Part shown: positions 16,547 to 64,000 of the stretch, piece by piece | How positions within the stretch are numbered: the first letter of the stretch is position 1 | Layout of the letters: every line of letters begins with the position of its first letter | Origin: Gluconacetobacter asukensis | Lineage (GTDB): Bacteria > Pseudomonadota > Alphaproteobacteria > Acetobacterales > Acetobacteraceae | Direction: 5' to 3' | Assembly (NCBI RefSeq): GCF_014174375.1 | Contig: NZ_JABEQE010000002.1 | Span: 372,001-436,000 of the forward strand | Length of the DNA stretch: 64,000 nucleotides | Notes under the pieces: generated by a model | What the model saw: only the letters and a program-made list of their open reading frames with translations | Database searches by the model: none | Told to the model about the DNA's origin: nothing | Translations under genes and position numbers: made by a program

Positions 16547-16568
16547 CGGAGACCGTTGCGGCAGTCTT

Positions 16569-16688: not shown

Positions 16689-16711
16689 ATATCCTTAATG
16701 AGGGGCATCCA

Positions 16712-16906: not shown

Positions 16907-16923
16907 GAGCCGCCGGCGGGCTT

Positions 16924-17559: not shown

Positions 17560-17631
17560 GGACGTCTCGACGGGCTTCGCCCGGTTGCAGGAAGGGAAAC
17601 GATATTTCGGATCGGGTGACGATCCTGATGG

Positions 17632-31501: not shown

Positions 31502-31587
31502 GGCAAGCCCGCTACCTTCTGCTTCCAACAGGCTGACTCCCTGAGGTTTCTACCTTGTAGAAATTTCAGGGCCTGCCCTGAGATGGG

Positions 31588-31737
31588 ATGAGCAAGAGGG
31601 CCGTGAACCTGCGGGTTTTATCGATTTCGGGCGCACGGTTGTATATAGCACGTATATCCAAGGTGGAGCGTGTTCTGATGTTGCGTTACCTGCTGGATGC
31701 AAATTCCTGCTTCCGGGGGTGCGATCGGTCCTTATGA
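31588..31737 (+). pseudogene. Toxin-antitoxin relic (CcdA/VapB-like start fused to VapC-like start)
   Basis: A 49-codon frame starts MSKRAVNLRV, which resembles the N-terminus of CcdA/VapB-type antitoxins, and ends MLRYLLDANSC, the typical beginning of a PIN-domain VapC toxin with its first catalytic Asp. Almost all of both proteins is missing. Between the two pieces lie a GTATATA...GTATATC repeat like those in toxin-antitoxin promoters and an AAGGTGGAG ribosome site. Deletion remnants of one or two type II modules are the simplest explanation. It is short, so the call is tentative. Confidence 0.45.
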
Positions 31738-31745
31738 TCTGGTGA

Positions 31746-32198
31746 TTACTTCGACTTGACGGCGGTACCCATCACCTCAAAATGCGCGCCACCCAGCAGG
31801 GTACCCGCTCCGATGAAAGCGCGGGCTGGCATTGGCCCCTTGAAATAGGTCCGATAGACGGCGTTGAACGCCGCGAAATCTTTAATATCAGAAGCGAAAA
31901 TCTGTACCCAGACAAGGTCATCCATAGTAAGTCCAGCGTTTTCAACAGTCTTTTTGATATTATCAAGCACTATTCTGGCGCCAGCTGTCGCGTCGGCGCC
32001 CGGTTTGCCTGTAGCAGGGTCATGGTCAGTAGTGCCGGCGATATAGAGGGTATCGCCGGCTAAAACCGCACCGCTGAATGGCGGAGCACTGGTCAAACTC
32101 GCCGGCACGCCTTCGGGCGCAAAATGCTTAACCTTTGTCGCGGCTTGCGATGCGGTGGCGAACAGCATTGCAAGGAGGGTGGGAGCAACGTAGCGCAT
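31746..32198 (-). CDS. Exported RidA family protein
   Basis: A 150-residue RidA/YjgF fold protein with an N-terminal signal peptide (MRYVAPTLLAMLFATASQAA), so it should act in the periplasm, unlike the cytoplasmic imine deaminase RidA. The conserved Arg of the active-site pocket is in PARAFIGAGTLLGG, and HFEVMGTAV is the final strand. Substrate and role are unknown. Its GC content and codon use look lower than in the flanking metabolic genes. Confidence 0.82.
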   Translation of the reverse strand: MRYVAPTLLAMLFATASQAATKVKHFAPEGVPASLTSAPPFSGAVLAGDTLYIAGTTDHDPATGKPGADATAGARIVLDNIKKTVENAGLTMDDLVWVQIFASDIKDFAAFNAVYRTYFKGPMPARAFIGAGTLLGGAHFEVMGTAVKSK

Positions 32199-32595
32199 CA
32201 GGACCTCTTTGTGAGAAACGGATCACAATATAACAGGAAATAAAATTTATTGCGAATTCGTTGCGAAAGAGACTCTGGTGCAACGTCTGCAATGACGGCT
32301 TTCGGGATCGACGAAGGTGCCCGAGAACGGCGACGATGAGGTGAAAGCCGAAGTTTGAGGGCAGATGTTTCCGATCTCCAGTGTCAGATTACGAACAGGC
32401 GGCGTCGCGATGATCGGTATGGCAAACACCGGCATATGCGCGATGGCGGATGACTCGGCCGCTTTCACGGTAGGCTGGGGATGGCCTGCGGTAATTGTGT
32501 CCGGCAGGCTTTGTCCGTGAAAACTGGTTTCTCTCTCCCGGTGTCAGGTATGAGGTATAGAACAATAATCAGGACCTTACCGAGCGAAGGGTGCC
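32199..32595. other. Intergenic stretch without a supported gene
   Basis: A 397-base gap between divergently oriented genes. A 73-codon minus-strand frame (32247-32468) is open but has no recognisable motif, and its codon pattern is unconvincing. The first 50 bases after the ridA start are AT-rich and probably hold its promoter. The region may be degenerate DNA; no tRNA, riboswitch or IS end was seen. Confidence 0.5.
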
Positions 32596-33444
32596 ATGAC
32601 GAAGATGGAAGATATCGAAGCCCTTCCCATGGTACTGGGGTGGCGGCCGGATTCATTTCGTATGGTGAAGAGAGGGTATACTCCTGTTGCACGGTATGTC
32701 GTGTCGAACGGCACGCGACGGGCTTTCGTCAAGATTGCGACCACCGCGCATACGGGCATGCTGCTGCGTCGTGAGATCGCGGCCTATCAGGTGTTGCGTG
32801 ATGCGCCGAGGCCGACGCTGATCGGTTATTCCATTGACCGAGACATGCCAATTTTGGCCGTTGAAGATTTGAGCGATGCGATGTGGCCGCCTCCTTGGAC
32901 GGATGAGAGGGTTTCTGCCGCTGTAACAGCCATCAGGGCGTTACATGGGTTGCGCGTGGATCTGCCTTCGTTTGAAATCGTGCATGGTGGAGAAGGGAAT
33001 GGCTGGCGGGCGGTTCAGGCTGATCCGCTGCCATTTCTGGCGCTGGGGCTGGTGACGGCAGACTGGTTGAGGCGGGCGCTTCCGGCGCTGATCGAGGCTG
33101 AAGCCGCCTGTTCCACAAATGGCGTTGTTCCCTGTCACTGGGATTTACGAAGTGACAATATGTGTCTTGTGAATGGAACGATGAAGTTGGTGGATTGGGC
33201 GGAAGCCTGCCTGTCCAATCCGCAGCTTGATTTGGGATTCTGGCTGCCCAGTCTTGCGTATGAAGGGGGGCCATCGCCGGAGGCCATTTTACCCCACGCT
33301 CCCGATATTGCTGCATGGGTATCGGGATATTTCGCGGCGCGTGCGGGTTTGCCGATCATTCCGAATGCGCCGTTCGTCAGACGCGTTCAACAAGAGCAGT
33401 TATCGACGGCGCTCCCATGGGCTGTTCGGGCGTTGCGGCTGTAG
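32596..33444 (+). CDS. Aminoglycoside phosphotransferase (APH)-like kinase
   Basis: A 282-residue protein kinase-like fold enzyme of the APH/choline kinase family. The N-lobe lysine is in RAFVKIATT, the catalytic loop is CHWDLRSDNMCL (HxDxxxxN), and the metal-binding Asp is in LVDWAEA. Small-molecule phosphorylation is likely, but the substrate is unknown; antibiotic resistance cannot be inferred from the fold alone. It is convergent with pdc, with an A-type terminator between the two. Confidence 0.78.
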   Translation: MTKMEDIEALPMVLGWRPDSFRMVKRGYTPVARYVVSNGTRRAFVKIATTAHTGMLLRREIAAYQVLRDAPRPTLIGYSIDRDMPILAVEDLSDAMWPPPWTDERVSAAVTAIRALHGLRVDLPSFEIVHGGEGNGWRAVQADPLPFLALGLVTADWLRRALPALIEAEAACSTNGVVPCHWDLRSDNMCLVNGTMKLVDWAEACLSNPQLDLGFWLPSLAYEGGPSPEAILPHAPDIAAWVSGYFAARAGLPIIPNAPFVRRVQQEQLSTALPWAVRALRL

Positions 33445-33515
33445 TGATGTCCGCTGCAGCCCATGCCCGGCAGCACTCCGGCCGAAAGCCTCCGGCGGAC
33501 CAACCCGCCAGAGGC

Positions 33516-33560
33516 CAACGAATAAAGGTCTTTTTGCTTCTTTTTCTTCAGAAAAAGAAG
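33516..33560. terminator. A-type palindrome between APH-like gene and pdc
   Basis: CAACGAATAAAGGTCTTTTTG precedes palindrome A, whose CTTCTTTTTC arm starts at 33537 and ends at 33560. In the pdc direction (minus strand) this is a stem followed by an A/T tract. The element begins 8 bases beyond the pdc stop and is shared by the convergent APH-like gene. Only the A half of the composite repeat is present. Confidence 0.75.
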
Positions 33561-33568
33561 GTTCTTCC

Positions 33569-35245
33569 TCAGTTCACTTTCGGCGGGCGGCCGTTGGCGG
33601 CGGCGACTTTGGTGCCCCATTTGACCAGGGTTTCGGTGCAGTCCGAACGGTCCAGGTCGCATTCGATCAGGGTGGGGCCGTTTGTGTTGGCTTTGGCCTG
33701 TTCGATGGCGCCCGCCAGTTCGCCGGCGGTGGTGGCGCGGAGGCCCAGGCCGTGGCCGTCTTTGGCGTTGAAGGCGGTGATGAGGCCGGCGTAGTCCCAG
33801 TTCTTGATGTAATTGTAGGGGCCGTCATGGATCTTGATTTCGATGACGTAGCCGTGATTGTTCACGAGGAAGATGATGATCGGCAGTTCGTAGCGCACCA
33901 TTTGCGCGACTTCCTGCGCGGTGAGCTGGAAGGAGCCGTCGCCGACCATCAGGACGTGGCGGCGGTCGGGGGCGGCCAGCGCGCCGCCGAGGGCGGCGGG
34001 GACCGACCAGCCGATGCTGCCCCACTGCATCTCGCTTTCGACCTTGGCGCCGCCGGGCAGGGTCATGCGGACGGCGTTGAACCAGCTATCGCCGGTTTCG
34101 GCCGTGAGTGTGGTGTTGCTGTCGATCAGGGCATTGATCTGGCGGGCCATTTCATCGTTGGTCAGGCGGGCGTCGCGGGCTGCGGTGGGGATGGTGGGTT
34201 GGGGCTGGCGCGGGGTTTCGGCGGAGCCGGCGCGGCGGGGGGCGCGGGCGGTGAGGGCTTCGACATATTGACGGATGGAGAAGCCTTCGAAGACGCGGCC
34301 GTTGACGGTGATGCCTTGCAGGTCGGCCAGCAGGGTGTTTTCGGGGTTGAGCGTGGCGCGCCAGCCGACGGTGGCGTAGTCGTTGAAGATCGGGCCGAGG
34401 CAGAGGACGCCGTCGGCACCCTCGATGAGGTCCTGCGCGCCGGGAGAGCTGACTTCGCCCCAATAGACGCCGCGATAGGCGGGGTGGTCTTCGGGGAAGA
34501 AGCCTTTGGCGGCGGCCATCACCGTGACCGCGCAGCCCATGCGGTCGGCGAGGGCGGGCAGCAGGTCGATGATGCCGGAAGCGCGCATGCGGCTGCCGAC
34601 CAGCAGCACCACCTTGTCGCGGGCGTAGAGGAAGCGGCCGGTTTCCTCCAGCGCGGCTTCCAGGCTGGCTTGGTCGGCGGCGGGCTCGGACAGCAGGCTG
34701 CTGACGGGGCCGGGGGCGGCGCAGGCAGCGTTGGCGAGGTTGCAGGGGATTTCGATATAGGCGGGCTTGCGCTCGCGGAGCGCTGCGCGGATGGCGTTGT
34801 CGATCTGGTGCGGGGCGTTCTCGGCTGAGAAGATCACCTCGGTGGCGCAGGTGATGTGGCGCATCATCTCGGCCTGGTAGCCGTAATTGGTGTTGCCCAG
34901 CGTGTGGTGCAGCAGGTGGCCCGAGCCGTGATCGTTGGTGTTGGGGGCGCCGGAAATCAGGATCACCGGCACGTTCTCGGCGTAGGCGCTGCCGATGGCG
35001 TTCATGGCGGAGAGGGCGCCGACGCTGAAGGTGACGATCATGGCGGCGGCGCCGTTGGCGCGGCCGTAGCCTTCGGCGCTGTAGCCGCAATTCAGCTCGT
35101 TGCAGCTATAGATCTGTTTGGTCGAGCCTTCCGCCAGCAGTTCGTCGAGCAGGATCAGGTTGAAATCGCCGGCGACGGCGAAATGGTGTTTCAGGCCGAT
35201 CTGGCCGAGGCGGGCGGAAAGATATTGGCCGACTGTGGTGGTCAT
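33569..35245 (-). CDS. pdc: Pyruvate decarboxylase
   Basis: A 558-residue thiamine diphosphate enzyme that converts pyruvate to acetaldehyde. It carries Glu50 in [13 protein letters not shown] for cofactor activation and the catalytic His113-His114 pair in HLLHHTLGN. The ThDP/Mg motif runs from [12 protein letters not shown] to VNNHGY. These residues separate it from indolepyruvate or oxalyl-CoA decarboxylases. Bacterial PDC is rare and typical of Zymomonas and acetic acid bacteria, where it feeds acetaldehyde to oxidation toward acetate. The start MTTTVGQYL at 35245 matches the family; an upstream extension is not conserved. A LysR regulator is divergent. Confidence 0.96.
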
Positions 35246-50368: not shown

Positions 50369-52750
50369 ATGAACGAGCCCCTCTCGGAGGCCCCGTCGGT
50401 CGCGCCTCTTTCGGAAACCGAACTCGCCCTGTTCAATCGCTGGTGGCATGCCGCCAATTACCTGTCCGTCGGGCAGATCTATCTGATGGCCAATCCGCTG
50501 CTGCGCGAGCCGTTGCAACTGGAGCATACCAAGCCGCGCCTGCTGGGCCATTGGGGCACCACGCCGGGACTGAATTTCCTCTGGCTGCATCTGAACCGCA
50601 TCATCCGGGCGCGCGATACGTCCGTGCTCTTCATCGCCGGGCCGGGGCATGGGGCACCGGGTATCGTCGCCAGCACCTATCTGGAAGGCACCTACAGCGA
50701 ATATTTCCCTGAGGTGTCGCAGGATCTGGACGGGCTGGGGCGGCTGATGAAGCAGTTCTCGTTCCCCGGCGGCATTCCCAGCCACGCGGCCGCCACCACG
50801 CCGGGTTCGATCCATGAGGGTGGCGAGCTGGGCTATTCGCTGTCGCACGCCTATGGCGCGGCGTTCGACAATCCGGACCTGGTCGTGGCCTGCGTGATCG
50901 GCGATGGCGAGGCCGAGACCGGGCCGCTGGCGACCTCGTGGCACAGCAACAAATTCGTCGATCCCGCGACCGATGGCGCGGTGCTGCCGATCCTGCATCT
51001 GAACGGCTACAAGATCGCCAACCCGACGATCCTGGCCCGCATCGCGCCCCGTGAACTGGCGGCGCTGCTGCGTGGCTATGGCTATGAGCCGATCTTCGTC
51101 GAGGGGCATGATCCGGACCCGATGCACCAGAAGATGGCGGCGGCCATGGATCTGGCGTTCGACCGTATTGCCGCCATCCAGAAGGCGGCGCGCGGGGATG
51201 GAAAGACCGAGCGCCCGGCCTGGCCGATGATCGTGCTGCGCAGCCCCAAGGGCTGGACTGGCCCGAAGGAGATCGACGGGCTGCGGACCGAGGGCTATTG
51301 GCGGTCGCACCAGGTGCCGTTCTCGGACCTGACGCATCCGGGGCACCTGCAGGCGCTGGAGAGCTGGCTGCGCAGCTACAAGCCGGAAGAGCTGTTCGAC
51401 GAATCCGGGCGGCTGTTCCCCGAGATCGCGGCCCTGGCGCCCGCCGGCACGCTGCGGATGAGCGACAACCCGCATGCCAATGGCGGCCAGTTGAAGCGCC
51501 CGCTGCGGCTGCCCGACATTGCCGATTATGCGGTTCCGGTTACCGGCCCGGGGCACGAGACCGGCGAGAGCACGCGCGTGATGGGCGATTGGCTGCGCGA
51601 CGTGATGAAGCTGAACCTGGAGTCGCGCAATTTCCGGGTTCTGTCGCCGGACGAGAACAATTCCAACCGCCTGAACGCGGTGCTGGATGCTACCAACCGG
51701 GCGTGGAACGCCGAAACCTTTGATTATGACGACCATCTGGCGCGCGACGGCCATGTGATGGAAATCCTGAGCGAGCATACCTGCCAGGGATGGCTGGAAG
51801 GCTATCTGCTGACCGGGCGGCACGGTTTCCTGTCCTGCTACGAGGCGTTTATCCACATCATTGATTCGATGGTGAACCAGCATGCCAAATGGCTGAAGAC
51901 CGCGGCCGAGGTGCCGTGGCGGCGGTCGATCGCGTCGCTGAACTATCTGCTGACCTCGCATGTCTGGCGCCAGGACCATAACGGCTTCAGCCATCAGGAC
52001 CCGGGCTTCATCGACCATGTGATCAACAAGAAGGCCGAGTTCGCCCGCGTCTATCTGCCGCCCGATGCCAATACCCTGTTGTGGACCACCGCCCACTGCC
52101 TGCAAAGCTGGGACCGTATCAACGTGATCGTGGCCGGCAAGCAGCCCGAGCCGCAATGGCTGGGGCTGGACGATGCGATCCGCCATTGCGAGGCGGGCAT
52201 CGGCATCTGGGAATGGGCCAGCAACGACAAGGGTGGCGAGCCCGACGTGGTGATGGCCTGTGCCGGCGATGTGCCGACGCTGGAGACCCTGGCGGCGGTC
52301 AAGCTGCTGCGCGAGCATGCGCCGGATCTGAAGGTGCGCGTGATCAATGTCGTGGACCTGATGACGCTGGATTCCCCCAGCCAGCACCCGCACGGGCTGG
52401 ATGACGCGGCCTTCGATGCGCTGTTCACGATCGACCGGCCGGTGATCTTTGCCTTCCACGGCTATCCGCAGCTGATCCACAAGCTGATCTATCGCCGGGC
52501 GAATGCGCGGAATTTCCATGTCCACGGGTTCCGCGAGGAAGGATCGACCACGACGCCGTTCGACATGGTGGTGCGCAATCATCTCGACCGGTTCCATCTG
52601 GTCTCGAACGTCATCGACCGCGTGCCGGGACTGGCGACCCGCGCCGCCTATGCCAAGCAGGCGATCCGCGACAAGCTGGTCGATCATACCCGCTATATTG
52701 CGGAACATGGCCGTGACATGCCGGAGATCGAGGCGTGGCGCTGGTCGTAG
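50369..52750 (+). CDS. xfp: Phosphoketolase
   Basis: A 793-residue thiamine diphosphate enzyme cleaving xylulose 5-phosphate or fructose 6-phosphate to acetyl-phosphate plus an aldose phosphate. Family marks are [47 protein letters not shown] and the ThDP motif [10 protein letters not shown]...NGYKI. GGGAAGG-type ribosome site (GGGAAGGAA) precedes the ATG. Together with ackA it can convert sugar phosphates directly to acetate and ATP. Confidence 0.97.
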
Positions 52751-52876
52751 GGCCTTATTTCAAGATTGGTGTTGAGGGTGCGTTGTGAGAATTTGAACAA
52801 TCACAATGCACTCTACATCATCGGTTCCTGGAGGGTGATTCGTAATTTCGACGAGTTTGTCAGGTTGTGATTTTTT

Positions 52877-53773
52877 CTAATCTTCTGGAAACATCTTGAA
52901 ATTCATGAAAGTCGTATCTGGCTTATAGCGAGAGGTATCAAAATCTCTACTCATATTGTAATGAATATCCAGGATGAACTCGCGTTCATGATGTGAAAGT
53001 TCGTCGATATAATCGAGTAAGAAGGCGATATAATACCGATATGAACTGATGTTTTGTGCAAAAATACTGCCGATCTGTCGGCCGTGCTCGTTGTTCCAAT
53101 CCCACTGTCCTGAGAGAATCGCATTGATGGCTCCCAGCTTCGGGCCATGGAAATGCAATATCTTCGCCTCTTTATTTGCACCCCAGTATACTTTCCAATT
53201 CATCTCGAGGGCGAGTTTTTCCCACTTTCCGCGATAGAAAGTATTGTAGGCAATCTGGTCATGGAACTGATAAGTCTTTTCTTCTATATTTTTTCTTATA
53301 TATTTTTCGAATTCGGGGTACGTCTCCTGAAATTTACGCACATTGATGTGCATTACCCCCGCATTGAAATAATTCCATCCGTCCTTTTTGAATTCGGGAG
53401 CGGCCATGAAATATGATGGTTCTCTTTCCAACCCAATGGGGTTTGACAGAAACAAAACATCAATATCGGAGTACAATACATAGTCATCATTTGTCGTCAG
53501 GCAGACGTTTGTTCTGAGCCAATGCCCAACGGTTGATAGATTATATTTTCCCTCATCGGACAAGCGCTTGATTAAATCATAGTATGGAAGATGTTGATCA
53601 AGTATTTCGACCCCATGTGTCTCCAGCCATTGAGTAAATTCGTTTCTTCGCCCGATATATAACATTTTAATGTCTAAATCAGAGTGTTTCCTTGCAGACA
53701 GAACGGCGAGCTTTGTGTGTAACGCAATGTCCCCGTGGGTGCCGTGTTCGTTTAAGGCAAGGTATAATTTCAT
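52877..53773 (-). CDS. GT8-like nucleotide-sugar glycosyltransferase
   Basis: A 298-residue soluble protein resembling GT8-type retaining transferases. The DxD motif is YSDIDVLFL (Asp103/Asp105), followed by YFNAGVMHINVRKF. The C-terminal segment KILHFHGPKLGAINA resembles the HxxGxxKPW motif of the fold. Base composition is markedly AT-rich compared with xfp just before it, a sign of separate origin. The sugar donor and acceptor are unknown. It lies 64 bases after the end of the large glycosyltransferase, probably in one transcript. Confidence 0.7.
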   Translation of the reverse strand: MKLYLALNEHGTHGDIALHTKLAVLSARKHSDLDIKMLYIGRRNEFTQWLETHGVEILDQHLPYYDLIKRLSDEGKYNLSTVGHWLRTNVCLTTNDDYVLYSDIDVLFLSNPIGLEREPSYFMAAPEFKKDGWNYFNAGVMHINVRKFQETYPEFEKYIRKNIEEKTYQFHDQIAYNTFYRGKWEKLALEMNWKVYWGANKEAKILHFHGPKLGAINAILSGQWDWNNEHGRQIGSIFAQNISSYRYYIAFLLDYIDELSHHEREFILDIHYNMSRDFDTSRYKPDTTFMNFKMFPED

Positions 53774-53837
53774 TTTCTGAATCCTTTTGTTTTATAATCG
53801 TTTTTCGTTATCGATACTCTTCGTTGTGCCTTGCATG

Positions 53838-56800
53838 TCAGTGCGGGGGGATCTGCCATGGGTTCATCAGCACCATGGCAAGAGAGGCGACAGACAGATG
53901 CAAGGGAATGACGCACCCATTGCCGGTGGCCCGGACTCGTTCGGCTGGTGTTCCGATATCGAATGTGATCACGGGCAATTCCTGTCGCCAGAATTCGGTC
54001 AGGACAAAAGACCAGGTTTCCGGCCAGATTGCCGGCAGAAAGCCCCAGTCGCAGGGGTGGGCCCGAATCAGCGCAGGCAGTTCCTCGCTGCTGTATCGTC
54101 CGGTAATCTCGACTACGCCGGTGGCTAACAGGCGCTGGTCATCGCAGGTAAAGCCGATAATGACAAAGCGCAACGGCAGGGCATTATCCGCGATGTGCCG
54201 GGCCAGGGCGAGCAGGATATTGAATCCTTTCTCTTTGCTGATGGCGCCGATCAATAATATTCGACGTATGTCCTGCGGCGCTTTGGGAGGAAAAATGGCG
54301 GCACGAAGTGGTGTCGCCGGCTCCCACGAGGCTAGGGTCACCGAGGCGCTGGTATGGCGGCGGTATCGATGGGCGACATCCTGGCTGGGCGCGATGACGG
54401 CCTTAGCTCGCTGGAACAAATCGTCGCTCAACTCCCTCAGCAGCGATGGAGCGATGTCGTCATCGTTCTGGGAGCCCAGATCGGTGACACAGCGTTGGCA
54501 AATGTCCGGAGTCGGCTCGCCACAATATAGATCGTTGTACGATACTAATGTAATGCGCGGACAGAGCCATGAATAATCATGGAGATAGACGACATAATCG
54601 ATACCGAAGCGAGATATCCGGTGAACGTCCCGGATTCCGGCACCGACATAGCTGTGGATCTCGATCCGGTCGCAACCGAGCGCGACGAAGAGCGTGCGCA
54701 GCTCCATACCATGTCGGGGCATGATGATATTCGGGTAGTCTTCCGGCAGGAAGGGTTCGATCTTCCAGCATGATTCGGCCGTACCGTCAGTATGACCGGG
54801 CGAAATGATCAGGGACATCCGTCCAGTTTCCAAGTTGTTGCATGCGCGTTCACGAACGAAACGCTGGACGCCCCCCTCCCTATCGTGGGTTATCAGTGCT
54901 GTTACAGGCCGTTCGCGGATCGTATCGCGCAGGCGGACCAGATCCAGATCGCGACGCAGGGGGGCCAGCGGATCGCGCGCCAGCCATGCCTGAATCATCC
55001 CGTCATATCCGGGATGCAGGCCGTTGAGGATCGCCAGATTGCGGCGGATCAGGTCGTTACGGACCGCGCTGAAGGATTGCCCTTCCGCATGGCCGACATA
55101 GGTGCCCAGACACGCCACGTGCCGCCATCCCAGAGCAGCAGCACGGCGGCAAAAATCATTTTCCTCACCATAGCCCTGCGCAAAAACATCCTCCCGAAAA
55201 AGGCCTGTCTGATGCAGGCACTCCGCGCGGATATACATGCAGTAGCCATGGGCAGTGGGAACGTCGATCAACGCATTGTCGTCACGGGCGGCCAATAGTT
55301 CCGCAATCTCGACGACCCTTTCATAGGATGGAATGGGATTGATGCTATCTGAGCGCGGATAGCTGAAGATGGTCGCCGCGTTGGACAAAGGCGTGGCCGT
55401 GCCGATATCGGGCGCGCGATAAACCGTGCGCTGCAGCGCATCGATCCAACGTGGCGGCGGCAGCGTATCGCTATTCAGCAAGATAACATCTTCATCTGGC
55501 GCAACGGTGTGCAGGCCGCGATTGGCCGAGAAGGTGAATCCCTTGTTCTGGGGGTTGGTCAGGACCGTTACGCCCGCCAGTTCGACGAGCGTATCGAGGA
55601 AGGCGGTAATGCGTGGGTCGGGAGAGCAGTCATTGACGATGACAACGCGATTACGCAGGTCGCGATGTTGTAAAACCCGTGTAATGCAGGTTCTGGTGAT
55701 TTCATAGCCGCGATAAACCGTGATAATGACCGCGACCCGGCGGTTGGGATGAGTCGTTGCCTCAATTTCCTGTCTAGCGAAACGGGGCGTGTAAAGCGTG
55801 GGAAACGGCTGGCTGAAGGAGGGCTTCACCGGCGTGGGGTGGCCGCTGGGGAACCGGGTGGCGACCCATTCAGCCTGTGCACGAGCATAGCGCTGTCCGG
55901 CGAGGGGATCGATCGGGCTGCCGTAAAAAGCGCGGCCGAAGCGATCGGTGACGGTGACGGCTTCTGTCCGGGCGCCTTGCAACTCCTGCCAGGGAATAAC
56001 GAACTCCGTGCGCGGCTTCTCGACCTGCAAGAGCGAGGCGTATATATCAGGTGGTTTGCCGGACAGGCTGTTGCCGCCTGGTTTGATTGTACCATCAAAC
56101 AGCAATCGGTTTTCGCCGGCCGTCTGTATCCGAATCCTGTCGCCCGCATGCAGATTGCTGGGGTAGCGGCACCAGCCGCTTAGTCCTTCGGGACTGCCCT
56201 CAATAAAGGCTTCGAAGTTCCATATCGCGCTACTGTCGATGCTGCTGCCCAGCAGATTGCGGCCGTCCTGAAGGATATCGATGCGCGGAAGACTAGGCGG
56301 CAGATCGAACGGCGTGACATCCCAGATTTGATAGCCAGGACATTGCGCACGCAAGGCCAGGTCGACCGGTTGCTCTCGCCCGTCATGGTACAGGACGAGG
56401 CGGCCCGTCGTGTGATCGGGCAGGCCTACAACCAGTCCTCCGTCGGCCATCATGCCGCACCACCCTGGGCCGTGACTGGCGTCGGCGATGGTGCTGAACA
56501 GCGTGAAGGCGATTTCGGGAAAGATGATCGCTGTTTCGCTTAAAAGCGCATGAAGTTCGGTTGCGGCCACGTCGTGACCGCTGAAATGCATTCGTGTGAT
56601 CAGCAGAAAGAAGCGGGCCAGAGGTGATCGCGTAACCATGGCCAGAAACTCGAACACCTCTGACGCGCGTGGTTCGCCCGACACCAACCGACAGAAGCCG
56701 ATCCCCATTGTGATGTCACGTGCACGGGGATGCACGCGCTGTAAATATTCCAATCGAGGCAGGAGGACATCAGGAGAGAGCGAAATGCCCTGCAAATTAT

Positions 56801-56873
56801 CATATCGATATGCCAGAATATGAATATGATGATTGCATATATCTCTCACGAATCTATCGATATATGGAGTCAT
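53838..56873 (-). CDS. Large bifunctional glycosyltransferase (GT2 + GT4)
   Basis: A 1011-residue protein. About 370 N-terminal residues precede a GT2 domain (about 385-640). This has VAVIITVYRGYEITRTCI, VIVNDCSPDPRITAF, LNSDTLPPPRWIDAL and GYGEENDFCRRAAALGWRH. A GT4-like GT-B half follows (about 680-1011), with VYLHDYSWLCPR and LLIGAISKEKGFNILLALARHIA. Two enzyme domains in one chain suggest assembly of two linkages of a surface glycan. ATG 56873 is preferred; a TTG at 56936 would add 21 residues. The N-terminal part includes a possible carbohydrate-binding beta-rich segment. Confidence 0.8.
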   Translation of the reverse strand: MTPYIDRFVRDICNHHIHILAYRYDNLQGISLSPDVLLPRLEYLQRVHPRARDITMGIGFCRLVSGEPRASEVFEFLAMVTRSPLARFFLLITRMHFSGHDVAATELHALLSETAIIFPEIAFTLFSTIADASHGPGWCGMMADGGLVVGLPDHTTGRLVLYHDGREQPVDLALRAQCPGYQIWDVTPFDLPPSLPRIDILQDGRNLLGSSIDSSAIWNFEAFIEGSPEGLSGWCRYPSNLHAGDRIRIQTAGENRLLFDGTIKPGGNSLSGKPPDIYASLLQVEKPRTEFVIPWQELQGARTEAVTVTDRFGRAFYGSPIDPLAGQRYARAQAEWVATRFPSGHPTPVKPSFSQPFPTLYTPRFARQEIEATTHPNRRVAVIITVYRGYEITRTCITRVLQHRDLRNRVVIVNDCSPDPRITAFLDTLVELAGVTVLTNPQNKGFTFSANRGLHTVAPDEDVILLNSDTLPPPRWIDALQRTVYRAPDIGTATPLSNAATIFSYPRSDSINPIPSYERVVEIAELLAARDDNALIDVPTAHGYCMYIRAECLHQTGLFREDVFAQGYGEENDFCRRAAALGWRHVACLGTYVGHAEGQSFSAVRNDLIRRNLAILNGLHPGYDGMIQAWLARDPLAPLRRDLDLVRLRDTIRERPVTALITHDREGGVQRFVRERACNNLETGRMSLIISPGHTDGTAESCWKIEPFLPEDYPNIIMPRHGMELRTLFVALGCDRIEIHSYVGAGIRDVHRISRFGIDYVVYLHDYSWLCPRITLVSYNDLYCGEPTPDICQRCVTDLGSQNDDDIAPSLLRELSDDLFQRAKAVIAPSQDVAHRYRRHTSASVTLASWEPATPLRAAIFPPKAPQDIRRILLIGAISKEKGFNILLALARHIADNALPLRFVIIGFTCDDQRLLATGVVEITGRYSSEELPALIRAHPCDWGFLPAIWPETWSFVLTEFWRQELPVITFDIGTPAERVRATGNGCVIPLHLSVASLAMVLMNPWQIPPH

Positions 56874-57473
56874 AATTAGGCTATATACCTTCGATTGTAT
56901 AAAAGGCCGAACTCTGCTCCACGACGAAGATGGCAACCGCAGACATATATTATCGATTGCATGTCAATGCGTGCTGCGATGTCATTGAGTCGAGCAATGA
57001 CGCCAAGCATTATAATCGATCCGCGAACGGGCCCTTTTTTCCGAAGAATCTTTTTTGAAAAAGGGAAATATGTGAACAATAATGGCAGAATGAAAACGCC
57101 GCAGTATCCGCCATCTGCCACCTCATGCAAAATATCAAAAGAACACCCTTTCTAATCGGGTAGGGTAAAAAAAAAGTAAAATTTTTGAAGAAAAGGAAAT
57201 TAAGAAAAAGGTAAGGAAGAAAATATATTGATTCCGTGATGGCGCGTTTAGGGGAAATCCATCATATCCGAAAGGGAGCCTACCGACGCCATCTGTCGGA
57301 GAGGAGCGTCTGTGTGAAAGAACGTCCTAAAACGCAGGCGCGTCTGCGGTGGCAATTTTTGAAGAATCATATTCAAAAAACGTACGAGTCGTCGATGCCG
57401 GGATCCTGAAGTGCGCAGGACAAAAAGCGAATGCAATGGCCGTACATTATCATTTTCGACAGATGGATCTGAG
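56874..57473. other. Long AT-rich divergent intergenic region
   Basis: A 600-base region between the large glycosyltransferase (minus) and the FkbH-type gene (plus), with runs of A and T (57165-57230) and several stop-rich frames. A short hairpin (TCTTTTTTGAAAAAGG near 57050) resembles half of the A/B palindromes. It probably holds both divergent promoters. No frame longer than about 110 codons has a recognisable product. Confidence 0.55.
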
Positions 57474-59690
57474 ATGAAAATTGTCACGAACCGCGACGAA
57501 TCCGCACCCGGCCTGTCAGCGAGAGTGTCCGGGGTTCCGTTCATTTTCGGCCCTCTCTCAGGCGATGCGCTCTCGGACAATTTCATTCTCGATAAAAGTG
57601 GACATGTGGAAGGATATGTTCACGATAATGAGAAATTCTGGGAGGCGCGTGACGGCAAGATCGTCATAATGAATAAAAACGGCCTCGCTATGTGGGAGTC
57701 CGTTGGAATAATGGAATCCGATGGGCGTATCGATAAAGTCATATTGTGCTGCCCGGCCGTTCCGGAAACGAAGTTTATTATGACGCGTAATGACAGGGTG
57801 CCAGAAGATATGTCCGTGAACCAGCCGACAGCCGAATCCAGTGTCGTGCGAGACGTCGATTATCTCTTCCCCGACGAGCTGGAAGTATCCGACAGCGGCA
57901 TCAACCGCGTTCTGCTGATCGGCTCGTGCCTGACGTCGCTGTATTTCGAGGGATTCAGCGGATTATATCCGGATATGTCGTTCGACTACATACCGTATAA
58001 TTTCATCAGCGAAATTCCGAACGATCCGCCGGCCCCGATCACGGAGTATAATTTTCAGTATGTGCAGATACCCCTGCGCAGCGTCATCAGCGACCGGGTG
58101 ATCTGGGGCCAGAATTTTCTGAAGGCGGATTTCGGCGAGGAAATCCTGCGGGACGGATATAACGTCATCGACGCCATGCTTGAAACGGCAATGGCCTACA
58201 ATATCCGGCATAAGATATTGACGTTCGTTTCCAATTTCATCGTCCCGCAGCGCAGCACGGCGCCCAGCCTTCATGACGGGTTCGGCGCGAGGGACCTGTG
58301 CTGGATCGTCACGGAACTGAATGCCTATCTCGCGAAGAAAGTGTCGGAATATGACAACGCCTATGTCGCGGACATAAATTCCGTGGCGTCTTCGATCGGG
58401 AAGCAATATGTGCTGGACGACATCATCTATTTCTATTCTCATGGCGGCGTGATCTACCAGGATTGGGATGATTTTAATGCCATTCCACGGAATGAGCCCA
58501 TTCCGGATATCAGCCATGTGTATGACATAAAGAAAGAACAGTTCCTGCGCGCGGCGTTTCGCCAGGCCGAGTGCCTGTACCGAACGGTCCGGCAGGTCGA
58601 CCAGGTCAAGGTCGTGGTCTTCGATCTCGATAATACGCTATGGCGCGGCCAGATTGCCGAGAACTACCGGAGCGATACCATGCCGTGGCCGCGCAGGGAT
58701 GGCTGGCCCCTGGGCTTATGGGAAGCTGTTCATTATCTGCGCGCACGGGGCATCCTGGTCGCGCTCTGTTCCAAGAACGATCTCGAGCATGTCAGGGAAC
58801 GGTGGGACGATGTGGTGGACCCCAGATTCATCTCGCTGGACGATTTTGCCTCCATCAAGGTCAATTGGGAGCCGAAGGCGAAAAACATCGAGGAAATATG
58901 CCAGGAATTCAACGTAAAGCCCAAGAGCGTCATATTCGTCGACGATAATCCGGTGGAGCGCGAGGCCGTTGCCTCGGCTTTTCCGGATATCCGCACGATC
59001 GGCGGAAACCCTTACCTGACCCGTCGTATTCTTCTGTGGGCGGCCGAAACCCAGATCGTCCGGATGACGACCGAATCGGAAAGGCGCGAGGAGATGATCC
59101 GGGGCCAGATCCGGCGCGAGGAAACACGCAGTTCCATGAGCCGGGAGGAATTTCTGAAGTCCCTTAGGTGCGAAGTTGCCTTCATTGAAATCAGTTCCAT
59201 TCAGCAGGCCGAGTTCGGCCGTGCGATCGAACTGACGAACAAGACGAACCAGTTCAACACCACCGGGAAAAGATGGCAGTTCGAGGAGGTCTCGGGCTTT
59301 CTGGCAGCGGGCGGCCGCATATTCGCGTTCCACGTTGCGGATAAATTCACGGAATATGGGTTGGTCGGCGTCGTCTACGTCAAGGGAAGCGAGATCGTCC
59401 AGTATGTCATGAGCTGCCGCGTCCTCGGTATGGGTGTCGAGGAATTCGCGGTTGGAAAAATCGCCTCCATCATGAGAGAGCAGGGAGACAATCGCGAGAT
59501 TCGCGCGAGCATCACATATACGAAGGATAATACGCCGTGCCGGAATATCTATATTCAGTGTGGATTTTCCGAGGCCGGGTCTGAAGGGGAGACAAGATAT
59601 TTCTCCCTTCCCGCTGGACAGGCAGCCAGGGAGGTGACGCATATAAAGGACACTTCCTCCCTTTCCTCCGCGTCACGGCAGTCGGACTGA
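57474..59690 (+). CDS. FkbH-type HAD/GNAT-domain protein
   Basis: A 738-residue protein of the FkbH type. An N-terminal module (about 10-110) has GHVEGYVHDNEKFWEARDGKI. Next comes an SGNH-like segment with VLLIGSCLTSLYF. The HAD phosphatase-like domain has VVFDLDNTLWRG (Asp384, Asp386), CSKND and VIFVDDNPVERE. The C-terminal GNAT-like part carries ELTNKTNQFNTTGKRW and the SCRVLGMGVEEFA motif. FkbH proteins load glyceryl units on carrier proteins in polyketide pathways; similar proteins also occur in glycan loci. No carrier protein or synthase is adjacent. Start is ATG 57474; a GTG at 57411 is possible. Confidence 0.8.
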   Translation: MKIVTNRDESAPGLSARVSGVPFIFGPLSGDALSDNFILDKSGHVEGYVHDNEKFWEARDGKIVIMNKNGLAMWESVGIMESDGRIDKVILCCPAVPETKFIMTRNDRVPEDMSVNQPTAESSVVRDVDYLFPDELEVSDSGINRVLLIGSCLTSLYFEGFSGLYPDMSFDYIPYNFISEIPNDPPAPITEYNFQYVQIPLRSVISDRVIWGQNFLKADFGEEILRDGYNVIDAMLETAMAYNIRHKILTFVSNFIVPQRSTAPSLHDGFGARDLCWIVTELNAYLAKKVSEYDNAYVADINSVASSIGKQYVLDDIIYFYSHGGVIYQDWDDFNAIPRNEPIPDISHVYDIKKEQFLRAAFRQAECLYRTVRQVDQVKVVVFDLDNTLWRGQIAENYRSDTMPWPRRDGWPLGLWEAVHYLRARGILVALCSKNDLEHVRERWDDVVDPRFISLDDFASIKVNWEPKAKNIEEICQEFNVKPKSVIFVDDNPVEREAVASAFPDIRTIGGNPYLTRRILLWAAETQIVRMTTESERREEMIRGQIRREETRSSMSREEFLKSLRCEVAFIEISSIQQAEFGRAIELTNKTNQFNTTGKRWQFEEVSGFLAAGGRIFAFHVADKFTEYGLVGVVYVKGSEIVQYVMSCRVLGMGVEEFAVGKIASIMREQGDNREIRASITYTKDNTPCRNIYIQCGFSEAGSEGETRYFSLPAGQAAREVTHIKDTSSLSSASRQSD

Positions 59691-59834
59691 CGTCGGTCGT
59701 TTCGGAGCGGAGTCCGTTATGAAAGATCGTTGCGTGGCGCGTTTCATGAACTGGCAGAGGACGTCCGTGCCGTGAATCAACCGGACAGAATCCTGAATCA
59801 GCCATCGCAGGCACGCCATCGTTCGGGGAACGAG

Positions 59835-61685
59835 ATGTATAAGACCTACAGGGTTACGGACCATTTCGGGCGGCCGATGGTAGTCGAGGACGGGCACATA
59901 AAACCGGGCCGGAACCAGGAGACGGGCACCCGCATGACGCTTCTGGTGCCGGAAAGCGAGCAAAACGGCGGCTATCTGATGTTTAGCCGGGGCGGCCCGT
60001 TCTCTTTTGATTTCGACCCCTATGTGAGCAGGTTTCATTATGTCGATCTCCGTCGTGATGAGAGCGGAGCGGTTGCTCTTGTCATTCCGGGGACCGGTCT
60101 TTTCTTATCCAGTCATCCGGATGGATATTATTTCTGCGAGCGCCGTCAGGCCATGGAGTGGGAACTTTTTACGCTCGACGACATATCAATCGAAGATGAA
60201 CAAGATCGGTCTTACGCCGGAAAGATCTATGAATCCATATTCAAATTCAACGAATACATAGAGGCCGGAATTGACCGCAAATATATTTCCTGTCATGAGA
60301 AGCGACTTCTCCTGGATGGGCTTCTGGCCAGCGTAAAGAAGATCGCACTGGAAACCCTGGAGGATTTTGCGGGGTATATTGTTAATGATCCGGAGTGGAT
60401 TGAGGTTATTTGCGATGGCAACAGGGATGTGTGGAGTGAGAATGCGCTTCGACCCCTGATAAGGTGGCTGCGTGACCGGGATGGCTACGAGAAGCCGGGC
60501 AATCTGATAGATGAACGATATGATTTCCTGAGTTGGGGAATCGTGCCGCCTGAAGGTTTCGGCGTGCGCCCCCGTTGCCCAGTCGAAATAATCGTTCGGG
60601 CCATACGAGCGAGGGTCGAGCCCAGAAAGGATTTCTGTGTTCTGGCGACCGCCCGAAACGAGGGAATATATCTCGCGGAATGGATTTCCTATTACAAGTC
60701 GATAGGATTTGAAAAGGCATTTATATATATAAATGACTGCATCGATCATTCAGAGAGAATTCTGGCTTCCATGGAGAAGCGGAGATTCGTCTCCTATTTC
60801 GAAACTGTGTCCGGAGAAGGCGTTAATGTCCAGGGGAAGGCATATAGCCATTGCCTGTCATTTGTGCCGGAAATATTGGATTATAAATGGGTTCTGATCG
60901 TCGATCTTGATGAATTGTTTGTCTACGATAGAAGGGCCTTCGCTGATCTTAAGCAATATTTCTCTTTTATCGAGAGGCGGGAGACTGATAGCGTTGCTTT
61001 TGACTGGATTAATATTGGGAGTGGCGGCCAGATAGTGTGGCGAGACAGGCCCTTCTTCGAAAGATTTTCCCGGTCTGGCTATCATGAGGCGAACAAGATC
61101 AAGACCGCATTCAGGCCCCAGAGAGCCGCGACCTCATATCCTCATTTTCCGATTGAATATGACAATTACTCGTTTATCAGACGAAATAGCGTGGGTTCTC
61201 TTATCAGGACAAGATTGCATGAGGAGCGTCATGGTGTATTGGGAAAGCACGTAAATGACGATCCCGACAGCAGATTTGCTGTCATATATCATTATTATTT
61301 CAAATCGATCGAAGAATTTATTTGGAAATCATCGCGGAATCGCGGCGATCATCCCAAGAGCGCCGAGATACGCGATGTGGCGTTTCACGAGGAGCTTGTG
61401 CGTTATTTTCTGGAGAAGTTCGAGATCGAGGATCGCTCGACATCAGGAAATCCGTGTTTTCCAGATATCAGCCTGATCGCTGACAGGTACCATGAAGAAT
61501 ATGACAGTCTGATGGAGGATGATGAGGTCAGGAAGGCGGTAGGTGATAACGGCGATTTATATAGAAAGAAATTCGCCGACCTGATCTCCATAATGGTGGC
61601 CCGCAAGGCATGCTATCGCGAGAACCAACTCAAAATGCTCAACATGATCATCGACGCAGCTAGCTGCGTAGAGCAATCGTCCTAG
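59835..61685 (+). CDS. GT92/GT2-like glycosyltransferase with beta-trefoil-like N-terminus
   Basis: A 616-residue protein. The C-terminal half has CVLATARNEGIYLAEWISYYKS, followed by the DxD motif LIVDLDELF (Asp357/Asp359) and FDWINIGSGG, marks of GT92/DUF23-type transferases. The first 120 residues read like a beta-trefoil (fascin/lectin-like) module: LFLSSHPDGYYFCERR followed by MEWELFTL. The start ATG 59835 is preceded by GGGGAACGAG; longer frames to 59730 begin with TTG. It lies 144 bases after the FkbH-type gene and before a GT61 gene. Confidence 0.75.
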   Translation: MYKTYRVTDHFGRPMVVEDGHIKPGRNQETGTRMTLLVPESEQNGGYLMFSRGGPFSFDFDPYVSRFHYVDLRRDESGAVALVIPGTGLFLSSHPDGYYFCERRQAMEWELFTLDDISIEDEQDRSYAGKIYESIFKFNEYIEAGIDRKYISCHEKRLLLDGLLASVKKIALETLEDFAGYIVNDPEWIEVICDGNRDVWSENALRPLIRWLRDRDGYEKPGNLIDERYDFLSWGIVPPEGFGVRPRCPVEIIVRAIRARVEPRKDFCVLATARNEGIYLAEWISYYKSIGFEKAFIYINDCIDHSERILASMEKRRFVSYFETVSGEGVNVQGKAYSHCLSFVPEILDYKWVLIVDLDELFVYDRRAFADLKQYFSFIERRETDSVAFDWINIGSGGQIVWRDRPFFERFSRSGYHEANKIKTAFRPQRAATSYPHFPIEYDNYSFIRRNSVGSLIRTRLHEERHGVLGKHVNDDPDSRFAVIYHYYFKSIEEFIWKSSRNRGDHPKSAEIRDVAFHEELVRYFLEKFEIEDRSTSGNPCFPDISLIADRYHEEYDSLMEDDEVRKAVGDNGDLYRKKFADLISIMVARKACYRENQLKMLNMIIDAASCVEQSS

Positions 61686-61716
61686 AGTTCTACAATACGT
61701 AAAAAAGGTATGTGGT

Positions 61717-63453
61717 ATGTCGATGGGCGCTAGAGAGAAAATCCTGATTCTCAGGACGATGTGGCCATTCCAAGGGACGCTGCCAAGAACCTTCGTGAAC
61801 TATGATGTACAGGAAATTGACACTCTGGATGATGCAGCTTCATTCCCTGAGGCAAAGATTCTCCTGACTGCCCTGGTTTTGACGCATGCTCCCGATCTCG
61901 AAAGTGCCGGAAAATTCATAAAGGAGGCCGCCCGCCGCTTTTCCGTTGTCATGTTCTATGAACCAAGTTCGCAGCCCCGGACTTATCTCGCGGCGCTGGG
62001 CTATAAGAGCCATCATGAAAATTACCAGGAAAATTGTCTGATCGGTGAAATAGACTTAAAGTTCTTTAGCCGGATCGGACGAGAGACGAGTGTCTATCGG
62101 GTTGAACATTATGGCGGGGGGGCAACCTTCGATATTCGCGCGCCCTGGATTGTTCCCCTGGATCAGCCGGGCGATATCGATTTCAATGAACTGGGGCATC
62201 GGCCTAATCATCTTTTCGAGCAACCGGTTTTTGAGATGTCGGCGTTTGTGATACGTGGTTTCAATGCGTTGCCTTTTACGCCCGGCCAGGATCTGGAGTT
62301 CATCGAGGCAAAGATATTGCAGCCGCACGGTCGGGCTGGCGGGTTTTTTCTGGAGGGGTTCCAGAGTCCTCGAAGACTTGGACGCGCCCTTTACACGACA
62401 CCCGCCAACCCCATCGATCTGCTCAACTACCGTGTCATTCATGAACCTGCCGTGATTGTGGACGAGGCGATCTATGATAACGACCAGCGCGCCAAGACGC
62501 TGGAAAGATGGCGCGGCATGTTCGCGTCGAAATGGCTTGACCTATCGATTAATGAATTACCGAATTGCGTCATCGGAGGTTCCGGATTCATTTTTTCCGA
62601 CGGCGTGCCCGTTCACGGAAGCGATTATTTGATACCGTATCTTTATACGTCGCTCTACCAGCCCATCTGGACCGGCCTGCAACGGCCCCATCCCCGCCGC
62701 CATCTTCCGGGCGTGTCCATCATGGGTTTTAATCATCTGTATGACAATTACTATCATTTCCTGGCCGAGGCATTGAATGCGATCGCTCTTTGCCAACAGG
62801 CCATCGAGAATACATATATAGAGAAAGTATATATTATAACAGGAAAATTGAATGGCGTTAGAAGGGAGTATCTGGATATTCTCCTCGCGGGGAACGACCG
62901 CATTGAGATCATCGACCTTGATCGTGACGAGTACGTCACAACGGATCGGACGCTTTATTGCGACCATTTGCTTGGTCGCTCCGTTCCGCAGCCTGTCCTG
63001 GTCGCGGAGCGTGTGGCGTTTCAACAGAAAATTCTTGAAAATTCCGGTCTTCTTCGGATCGATCGTGGCGATCGTTTGATCTACCTATCTCGTCAGGATA
63101 CGAAGGCACGTCCGATCCTAAACGAGGAGGCCCTCATCGAGCGCCTGCGCGGGTTGGGATTCGAGATTTATCTTGCCACGGGAAAGCCGGTTCGGGAGCA
63201 GATCCAAATGTTCCGCGAGGCGCGCCTTGTGGTTGCGGGACATGGTGCCGGGGTTTCGAACATGCTGTTCGCGCGGGAGGATGCTGCCCTTCTGGAACTC
63301 ATCCAGGCCAGCTACCTGAATGTCGGGCCGATGCGCCTGACTCAACTGTCCGGTGCCCGTTATCATTCCCAGCTTTTTTTCGAAGAGGGCGAACATAACG
63401 GATGGTATGTCGATATTGAACGCGTTGTGCGGGCAATTGGACAATTGATGTAG
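61717..63453 (+). CDS. GT61 (DUF563) family glycosyltransferase
   Basis: A 578-residue protein whose C-terminal half matches the DUF563/GT61 family. It has NHLYDNYYHFLAEALNAIAL (the N-x-x-H-x-x-x-E type motif), DRLIYLSRQDTKARPILNE and the signature VVAGHGAGVSNMLFA. About 300 N-terminal residues are unassigned. The base composition is intermediate between that of the core genome and the GT8-like gene. It is 31 bases downstream of the GT92-like gene, so FkbH-type, GT92-like and GT61 genes form one probable transcript. Sugar specificity is unknown. Confidence 0.82.
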   Translation: MSMGAREKILILRTMWPFQGTLPRTFVNYDVQEIDTLDDAASFPEAKILLTALVLTHAPDLESAGKFIKEAARRFSVVMFYEPSSQPRTYLAALGYKSHHENYQENCLIGEIDLKFFSRIGRETSVYRVEHYGGGATFDIRAPWIVPLDQPGDIDFNELGHRPNHLFEQPVFEMSAFVIRGFNALPFTPGQDLEFIEAKILQPHGRAGGFFLEGFQSPRRLGRALYTTPANPIDLLNYRVIHEPAVIVDEAIYDNDQRAKTLERWRGMFASKWLDLSINELPNCVIGGSGFIFSDGVPVHGSDYLIPYLYTSLYQPIWTGLQRPHPRRHLPGVSIMGFNHLYDNYYHFLAEALNAIALCQQAIENTYIEKVYIITGKLNGVRREYLDILLAGNDRIEIIDLDRDEYVTTDRTLYCDHLLGRSVPQPVLVAERVAFQQKILENSGLLRIDRGDRLIYLSRQDTKARPILNEEALIERLRGLGFEIYLATGKPVREQIQMFREARLVVAGHGAGVSNMLFAREDAALLELIQASYLNVGPMRLTQLSGARYHSQLFFEEGEHNGWYVDIERVVRAIGQLM

Positions 63454-63502
63454 AGGAAACGGGGCGGAAGCCGCCCCGGAATGGCGCACGGGACGCGGTG
63501 GC

Positions 63503-64000
63503 TTACTCGTGCAGGGCATCGTTCATTTCGTCGGTCCACATGGCGGATTGTGCGTTCCAGACCACATCGACGCCGGTGCGACCGTGCAAACGGCAGTCTG
63601 AACAGCGTGCATGTGCACCATCCGTCAGGCCGGAGGTCGGAAGCCTGTGCCGGGTAAAGGCTGGAAATCCGGGGAGGATTCCGTCCGAACGCATTGCCAC
63701 AAGGCGGACTTCCTTCCAGCGATTGGGGGCAACGCAGACATAGTGATTGTCGGTGTCATCGGTAAATTGTCCGGCGGAGCAGGGGGCCGAGGGCGATAAG
63801 GGGGTCGACAGCCTTTCCTGGAGATATCCCCCATCCACGACCAGGCCGTCCTTGAACGTCGCCGTGCCATAGAGGGTGATGCGGTTATCATTCCGTATTT
63901 CGACGGCCGGAGTCGGATTGGGGTGTCCATGTTGCCCCGCCACGGCACCCAGCATGAGGCCGCCTGCACCGCCGAGGACGTCCGAGTCGTTGCGTCCGCC
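63503..64000 (-). CDS. Phage tail/structural-like protein, 5' end outside the window
   Basis: The frame is open from the window end to a stop at 63503 (about 165 codons), so the start lies beyond 64000. The segment LYGTATFKDGLVVDGGYLQERL and CSAGQFTDDTDNHYVCVAPNRWKEV resembles repetitive tail-fibre or structural C-termini seen in phage-derived genes, but I cannot name a family with certainty. The window gives no prophage context beyond this gene. It is convergent with the GT61 gene. Confidence 0.5.
   Translation of the reverse strand, partial: GGRNDSDVLGGAGGLMLGAVAGQHGHPNPTPAVEIRNDNRITLYGTATFKDGLVVDGGYLQERLSTPLSPSAPCSAGQFTDDTDNHYVCVAPNRWKEVRLVAMRSDGILPGFPAFTRHRLPTSGLTDGAHARCSDCRLHGRTGVDVVWNAQSAMWTDEMNDALHE

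Follow-up and report, generated by a model that had tools for sequence, protein, structure and literature searches.

A stretch of 64,000 nucleotides from Gluconacetobacter asukensis (assembly GCF_014174375.1), referred to here as the window, comprises bases 372001-436000 of contig NZ_JABEQE010000002.1 (contig 2), which ends 9.5 kb beyond the window; the genome measures 4.39 Mb on 64 contigs. Near the right end of the window lies a gene for an FkbH-type protein, which is surrounded by glycosyltransferase genes. An earlier, sequence-only reading had described five consecutive genes as an accessory surface-glycan locus, and the five open reading frames (ORFs) were found at 52877-53773 (-), 53838-56936 (-), 57411-59690 (+), 59730-61685 (+) and 61717-63453 (+), with Pfam and the NCBIfam model TIGR01686 in agreement with the families proposed for them. 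These genes are real; the five-gene unit, however, is incomplete, as they form the first half of an AT-rich island of about 20.4 kb, which reaches from window position ~52751 to ~73149 and thus extends past the window end. The island is bordered by the phosphoketolase gene xfp on the left and by an outer-membrane efflux gene (end at ~73150) on the right. Conserved DNA ends at 52746-52754, around the stop codon of xfp, and, on the other side, at the end of the efflux gene. Following the sequence beyond the window, as the sequence-only reading had proposed, reached more island genes, and neither a polymerase nor an exporter nor a carrier protein was found among the Pfam matches of the island genes. 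According to Pfam, the island contains six clear glycosyltransferase-type genes and a weak one, and its features are, in window numbering:

50369..52750, + strand: xfp, encoding phosphoketolase; it borders the swap site described below on the left (Pfam XFP_N/XFP/XFP_C; present in 14 of 14 genomes of the genus, including its own)
52877..53773, - strand: GT8-like glycosyltransferase, GC 0.41 (PF01501 Glyco_transf_8, 24.6 bits, barely above the cut-off of 24.3)
53838..56936, - strand: GT2+GT4 fusion glycosyltransferase of 1032 amino acids (PF13641 Glyco_tranf_2_3/PF00535 Glycos_transf_2 and PF00534 Glycos_transf_1)
57474..59690, + strand: FkbH-type protein of 738 amino acids from the ATG at 57474, with the GTG at 57411 as alternative start (NCBIfam TIGR01686; Pfam HAD hydrolase)
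59730..61685, + strand: GT92/PF13704-type glycosyltransferase with an extra N-terminal region and an in-frame ATG at 59835 (PF13704 Glyco_tranf_2_4, 54.4 bits; PF01697 Glyco_transf_92, 41.3 bits)
61717..63453, + strand: GT61 glycosyltransferase, which probably ends the FkbH-GT92-GT61 run (PF04577 Glyco_transf_61, 67.7 bits)
63460..63478, - strand: G+C-rich, terminator-like hairpin, in which 8 of 8 pairs are G-C, located between the convergent genes for GT61 and the 729-amino acid protein (consensus scan)
63503..65692, - strand: 729-amino acid protein without a Pfam family, start signal-peptide-like by eye; its 3' part, 63503..64000, lies inside the window
66118..66918, - strand, beyond the window: polysaccharide pyruvyl transferase-like gene (Pfam)
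66949..69918, - strand, beyond the window: second GT2+GT4 fusion, a single continuous frame (Pfam)
69970..70857, - strand, beyond the window: GT2 gene (Pfam)
70751..72709, - strand, beyond the window: weak glycosyltransferase-like gene, E 0.024 (Pfam)

The base composition of the island sets it apart from its surroundings, with a GC content of 0.548 versus 0.664 in window 1-50000 and values of 0.41-0.58 per gene across the first five genes, and the flanking genes xfp, ackA and the squalene-hopene cyclase gene were assigned by Pfam; AT-rich DNA beside housekeeping genes, as described from the sequence alone, is therefore what lies at this position. The consensus scan for hairpins found 15 such sites in the region versus 9.7 expected (standard deviation 3.2), and the terminator role of the hairpin at 63460..63478 is putative. 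A megablast search against plasmids gave zero matches. Two more dips in GC content are present in the window, at 12001-18000 (~0.60) and at 31001-34000 (~0.57), the first of which is adjoined by a tRNA-Arg gene at 12776-12852.

The interval between xfp and the efflux gene is a swap site for variable glycan genes. Up to 20 kb downstream from xfp in 13 other genomes of the genus were compared with the proteins and the DNA of the island: the interval is empty in three genomes and filled with other or related glycosyltransferase sets in seven, two genomes have no efflux gene nearby, and one was left unassigned. At the empty sites (G009, G008 and G002), xfp and the efflux gene are 0.1-0.7 kb apart, with zero island proteins between them. 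The intervals of G004, G010, G005 and G001 contain a 69-71% identical relative of the GT2+GT4 fusion of the window, together with a relative of the second fusion at 41-44%; tblastn located the relatives of the first fusion (53838-56936) at the same site in 4 of the 13 genomes (loci L063, L064, L065 and L067). Relatives of the right half of the island, 77-90% identical, occupy the interval of G006, and G003 and G012 have other genes there, including a 31% GT92-type relative. Neither the efflux gene nor an island protein was seen within ~17.6 kb in G011 and ~7.8 kb in G013, or in the 2.6 kb of sequence at hand for G007. When ten chosen genes from the islands of L063, L066 and L068 were analysed with Pfam, eight were of the GT61, PF13704 or GT2/GT4 type. 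The FkbH gene was found in none of the 13 other genomes at E <=1e-10. Conserved synteny and normal composition across the relatives, which would have spoken against an accessory glycan locus, did not emerge from this comparison, because the interval varies between species and is empty in three of the 13 genomes; the accessory character proposed by the sequence-only reading is thus supported.

Five of the seven occupied genomes (L063, L065, L066, L068 and L069) encode weak and partial relatives of the 729-amino acid protein (E 3e-11 to 3e-4). A search against PHROGs returned for this protein a single weak match, to a tail protein (E 0.0048), and zero matches for the FkbH protein and for two of the weak relatives. 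Proteins with no Pfam family (three tested), which are weakly alike between species, are encoded at 63503-65692 of the window, L066:10686-12077, L063:8269-9813 and L068:2115-3533.

Genes for polymerisation and export were sought by a family search of the whole genome. Wzy_C was found on contigs 6, 7, 8 and 11, the match on contig 7 being below the cut-off, and Poly_export on contigs 7 and 8, whereas neither is present on contig 2; flippases and ABC exporters were not part of the genome-wide search. The genome has three carrier domains, two on contig 6 and one on contig 12, and two ketosynthases, on contigs 6 and 12; none of them lies on contig 2, which carries the island. As none of these matches is on contig 2, the functions for polymerisation, export and acyl carriage, if used, are probably encoded elsewhere in the genome. 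Two statements made from the sequence alone, that the locus has no polyketide synthase (PKS) or carrier gene and that no Wzy or export gene is visible, hold within the scope of these searches, and an adjacent polyketide cluster that would account for FkbH is absent.

The FkbH ORF is intact and its product matches TIGR01686 with 210.4 bits, well above the cut-off of 146.65. The protein consists of an N-terminal stretch (residues 1-122), an SGNH-fold domain (~123-376) with Cys152, Asp316 and His323 as marked residues, a HAD-IIIC domain (~377-530) with D384, D386, S433, K468, D490 and D491, and a GNAT domain (~566-716) with Cys648. In the HAD domain, we take D384 and D386 to be the catalytic aspartate pair, S433 to be motif II, K468 motif III and D490/D491 the aspartate pair of motif IV. 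Relatives were collected in a search of 147 relatives, which gave matches at E <=1e-10 in 31 including the own genome, and in a profile scan of named genomes, which confirmed at least 80 FkbH loci of 85; a single-sequence scan of the named genomes found no relative. Of the FkbH relatives with a species name among the matches listed, those of Acetobacter malorum and Komagataeibacter rhaeticus are nearest, which points to an acetic-acid-bacterium-like genome.

In a tree of 90 sequences, the FkbH protein of the window falls into a clade of 34 with a support of 1.0, apart from 56 others. Left out of the tree were the fragments L139, L099 and L150, the stop-split L051, L057 with its internal stop and most short loci of the search of 147 relatives. 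In the counts of synthase-like motifs, glycosyltransferases and carriers given below, L099, L139 and L150 were assigned to the other group by default, although L099 and L139 (~40% identical) may belong to the clade of the window protein, L051 was counted with the clade and L057 was not counted. The stop-interrupted FkbH gene of L051 (9075-10965) and the gene at L050:9234-11408 of the same genome, which lacks the GNAT SCRV motif, differ from the intact gene of the window; decay of the FkbH gene therefore seems to occur. The clade also has a member in an actinobacterium, Mycobacterium genavense (L079:9740-13099), which might reflect long-distance transfer.

The residues of the HAD domain are kept in 34/34 clade members and in 56/56 others, and Cys648 of the GNAT domain is kept in 33/34 and 56/56, respectively. 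The two groups differ at position 653, which is Arg or Lys in a single clade member versus 52 of the 56 others, and in the SGNH-fold domain, where the combination of Cys or Ser at position 152 with His323 occurs in 33/34 clade members versus 0/56 others. His323 is present in all 34 clade members. The Ser nucleophile of the SGNH GDS block is not found at position 152, which is Cys in 32 of the 34, Ser in one and a gap in the remaining, truncated sequence; esterases have Ser/His where the clade has Cys152/His323. In the other group, the alignment of the N-terminal domain is less sure and a His lies within ~3 columns of position 323 in 11/56 sequences. Two further candidates did not separate the groups: the cysteine of the CSKN motif, considered as a special acyl site, was rejected since it is variable in both (18/34 and 28/56), and the CoA-loop motif of the GNAT domain differs weakly (15/34 versus 13/56).

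An AlphaFold2 model of the whole protein reached a mean predicted local distance difference test score (pLDDT) of 79.5, and a model of the N-terminal domain alone reached a pLDDT of 84.7 and a predicted template modelling score of 0.84. The best fold match of the whole model is BF1531 of Bacteroides fragilis, which aligns over the N-terminal and HAD domains (Z 22.2, root-mean-square deviation (rmsd) 4.3, 340 aligned residues); single domains of the model match many GNAT and HAD enzymes. Sequence profiles also single out BF1531 (PDB 3slr, E 2.8e-30) as the sole relative of known structure at E <=0.01; the structure covers its N-terminal region including the phosphatase domain, and the title of the entry names no function. 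The model of the N-terminal domain resembles SGNH esterases (Z ~11-13), with many SGNH enzymes among the 50 matches listed (Z 10.9-13.2, rmsd 3.0-5.1; VIA-align), and is thus predicted to have an SGNH fold, a statement that concerns the fold only. The catalytic domains of OatA and PatB, which function in peptidoglycan O-acetylation, match it with a Z of 11.6 each; they have the SGNH fold in common with the window protein, which differs by a Cys in place of the Ser. SGNH proteins are established partners in the acylation of polymers (PMC12148441).

FkbH proteins are taken to load glyceryl from 1,3-bisphosphoglycerate (PMC7489565, PMC8949500). The FkbH enzymes of tetronate and methoxymalonate pathways make glyceryl-acyl carrier protein (glyceryl-ACP), for instance Mad7/Mad14 with the ACPs Mad8/Mad12 (PMC7489565), and FkbH domains also occur in nonribosomal peptide synthetases (NRPS) (PMC8949500). 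The Mad proteins are not among the sequences of our tree. The window protein shares with the ordinary glyceryl-ACP enzymes the TIGR01686 domain, the HAD catalytic residues and a GNAT domain whose SCRV cysteine is also present in the compared sequences of the other group, but it differs in having no neighbouring ACP, no PKS on its contig, no Arg/Lys653, a Cys/His pair and a place in a separate clade.

The absence of a carrier gene at the window locus, where no dedicated one was found next to FkbH, is not odd for this branch of the family, because a separate carrier gene is missing from the 1 kb around FkbH in every clade member tested. Loci were counted if the available DNA extended 1 kb or more in both directions (26/35 clade loci and 48/59 others); of these, 0/26 clade loci versus 25/48 others have a separate acyl carrier gene at a distance of up to 1 kb (Fisher p = 1.1e-6, uncorrected for relatedness); as the search was based on frames up to 400 amino acids, the test concerns separate carrier genes only. 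Within 3 kb, none was found in the 26 testable clade loci, and within 8 kb the counts are 1/26 (L079, 7.3 kb away) versus 28/48. When the limit of 400 amino acids was lifted, the search gained one carrier domain within the clade, in L095, where it sits at the distal end of a long PKS-like frame. Four other-group loci were fetched from the same bacterial family, and an adjacent carrier gene is present in L058, L059 and L061 and absent from L060, which is near a contig end. Two loci from Lokiarchaeota and Thorarchaeota bins (L100 and L101) combine an other-group FkbH gene with an adjacent carrier gene, which is either real or a binning error.

The neighbours of the clade members are mixed. Among the closest relatives, L049 is accompanied by GT4-type and GT17 genes, L050 by a GT92-type gene and both L075, from Acetobacter malorum, and L051 by relatives of the GT2 gene of the window, and GT2-type neighbours occur in at least six clade loci (L051, L075, L080, L090, L092 and L151). 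In L079, a GT28/EryCIII-type glycosyltransferase gene comes after the FkbH gene. The next closest relative, L076, has TonB-receptor-type and MCRA-type neighbours, and other clade members stand alone. Frames of the PKS/NRPS or AMP-binding type are found in at least eight clade loci, among which those of L054 (645 amino acids) and L098 (496 amino acids) are single frames and not megasynthases. In Paraburkholderia ferrariae (L095:5113-11470), an ABC-2 exporter gene (27.2 versus 26.9 bits) is flanked by the clade gene and by a second gene, whose HAD match is just below the cut-off (25.9 versus 26.4 bits), with the PKS-like frame farther along. A link of the whole clade to glycans was rejected as a rule; since its neighbours are mixed, a glycan role is argued for the locus of the window and not for the clade as a whole.

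That FkbH proteins can serve glycans is suggested, by analogy, by Campylobacter jejuni, in which the FkbH-domain gene cj1302 lies in the flagellar glycosylation locus and the flagellar sugar is di-O-methylglyceroyl pseudaminic acid (PMC7099621, PMC3068675). The statement that FkbH chemistry is established in polyketide pathways was therefore too narrow. Like the gene of the window, cj1302 lies inside a variable surface-glycan locus; however, in the parts of these papers available, the di-O-methylglyceroyl group is tied to cj1295 and not to cj1302. Strain 12664, in which cj1302 is a pseudogene, is without the group, but the same is true of strain 12661, where another gene is named as missing (PMC7099621, PMC3068675). 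A role of cj1302 in making the di-O-methylglyceroyl group is hypothetical. Another possible parallel is WcbI, a CoA-binding capsule protein with Cys14/His201 (PMC4104973), whose likeness to the window protein is an analogy by description, namely a Cys that follows the first strand and a His; its absence from the structure matches listed excludes nothing. Among the literature matches listed there was no carrier-free FkbH glycan enzyme, a weak absence. Glyceryl transfer also belongs to gellan, and no gene for it was among the literature matches listed. Modular O-antigen and capsule swap loci are a known kind in bacteria, and the island resembles them in its variable glycosyltransferases between fixed flanks and differs in that no polymerase or exporter was found in it. 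Overall, the locus is a variable glycan island of an ordinary sort that includes one unusual enzyme.

We tentatively favour the reading that the island is a horizontally variable surface-glycan module, in which the FkbH protein makes a glyceryl group and passes it to a sugar or nucleotide sugar without a dedicated ACP; glyceryl modification of a glycan at this locus is plausible. The island's glycosyltransferases would extend a surface glycan, whose polymerase and exporter would be encoded elsewhere. The FkbH protein would take up a glyceryl group, for which 1,3-bisphosphoglycerate is the most likely donor; the HAD domain would remove the phosphate and the GNAT domain with Cys648 would handle the acyl group. 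The glyceryl group might then be placed onto the sugar or nucleotide sugar via the protein's own Cys/His SGNH-fold domain and/or coenzyme A (CoA), thereby replacing a dedicated ACP.

The main rival, which we consider somewhat unlikely, keeps the variable glycan island and has the FkbH protein make glyceryl-ACP with a housekeeping carrier from elsewhere in the genome, which another transferase would use. The identity of the HAD and GNAT residues with those of other FkbH proteins fits this explanation, as do the genome's carrier-domain gene beside a ketosynthase gene (AcpP/FabF-like), its two further carrier-domain matches and the proximity of glycosyltransferases to two same-family, other-group FkbH genes with an adjacent ACP (L059 and L061). 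It leaves the Cys/His pair unexplained, however, and it is at odds with the lack of separate carrier genes within 3 kb of the testable clade members and with the loss of the other group's Arg/Lys653 in 33/34 clade members. It is improbable that the FkbH protein belongs to a small-molecule or glycolipid pathway, in which the glycosyltransferases would point to a glycosylated metabolite instead of a surface polysaccharide: PKS/NRPS-like motifs do occur in long frames near six clade loci (L077, L090, L092, L093, L095 and L151), and another contig of the own genome has a 2379-amino acid frame with a ketosynthase and a carrier domain, but the searches for ketosynthases and carrier domains found no synthase on the island's contig and the island's seven glycosyltransferase-type genes (one of them weak) occupy a position that holds glycosyltransferase genes in relatives. 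Very unlikely is a protein glycosylation island with the Pfam-less proteins of several site versions as putative secreted acceptors: the weak relatives of the 729-amino acid protein and the lack of an exporter in the island would suit it, but the similarity is weak and partial, the signal peptide was assigned only by eye, and if it is of the Sec type, it would part the protein from cytoplasmic glycosyltransferases.

Several observations weigh against a carrier-free glycan enzyme, the reading that we prefer. With home-made profiles, glycosyltransferases were found within 8 kb in 9/34 clade loci (the own locus excluded), scarcely more often than in 13/59 others, a count in which these profiles miss some genes (Pfam found a GT28-type gene in L079 and GT17 in L049) and some contigs are short, and several clade members adjoin what read, by eye, like housekeeping genes. 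Carriers built into the long frames near the six clade loci could serve the FkbH proteins there, and AcpP-like genes of the own genome could provide the carrier. The E-values obtained with Foldseek are weak, BF1531 and BT3161 being the sole matches of the N-terminal domain at E <=0.001, and the loop of His323 is poorly predicted, with a pLDDT <50 for residues 317-325 in the whole model and a block mean of 63 in the model of the N-terminal domain.

A wider claim, which we regard as unlikely, is that the clade represents a new one-chain glyceryl transferase, in which the HAD and GNAT domains would make the thioester and the Cys152/His323 SGNH domain would pass the glyceryl group to a sugar or CoA without an ACP, thereby decorating surface glycans in acetic acid bacteria and others. 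The noteworthy part of the finding is the clade-wide lack of a separate carrier gene together with the Cys/His SGNH-fold domain. Through the swap site, related species with different glycan versions are naturally available for comparing what each version does. Should the carrier-free reading be true, the presence of Cys152/His323 and the absence of Arg/Lys653 would be simple marks by which annotators could separate the two FkbH groups, and FkbH chemistry would reach from carrier-bound building blocks of natural products to direct glycan acylation.

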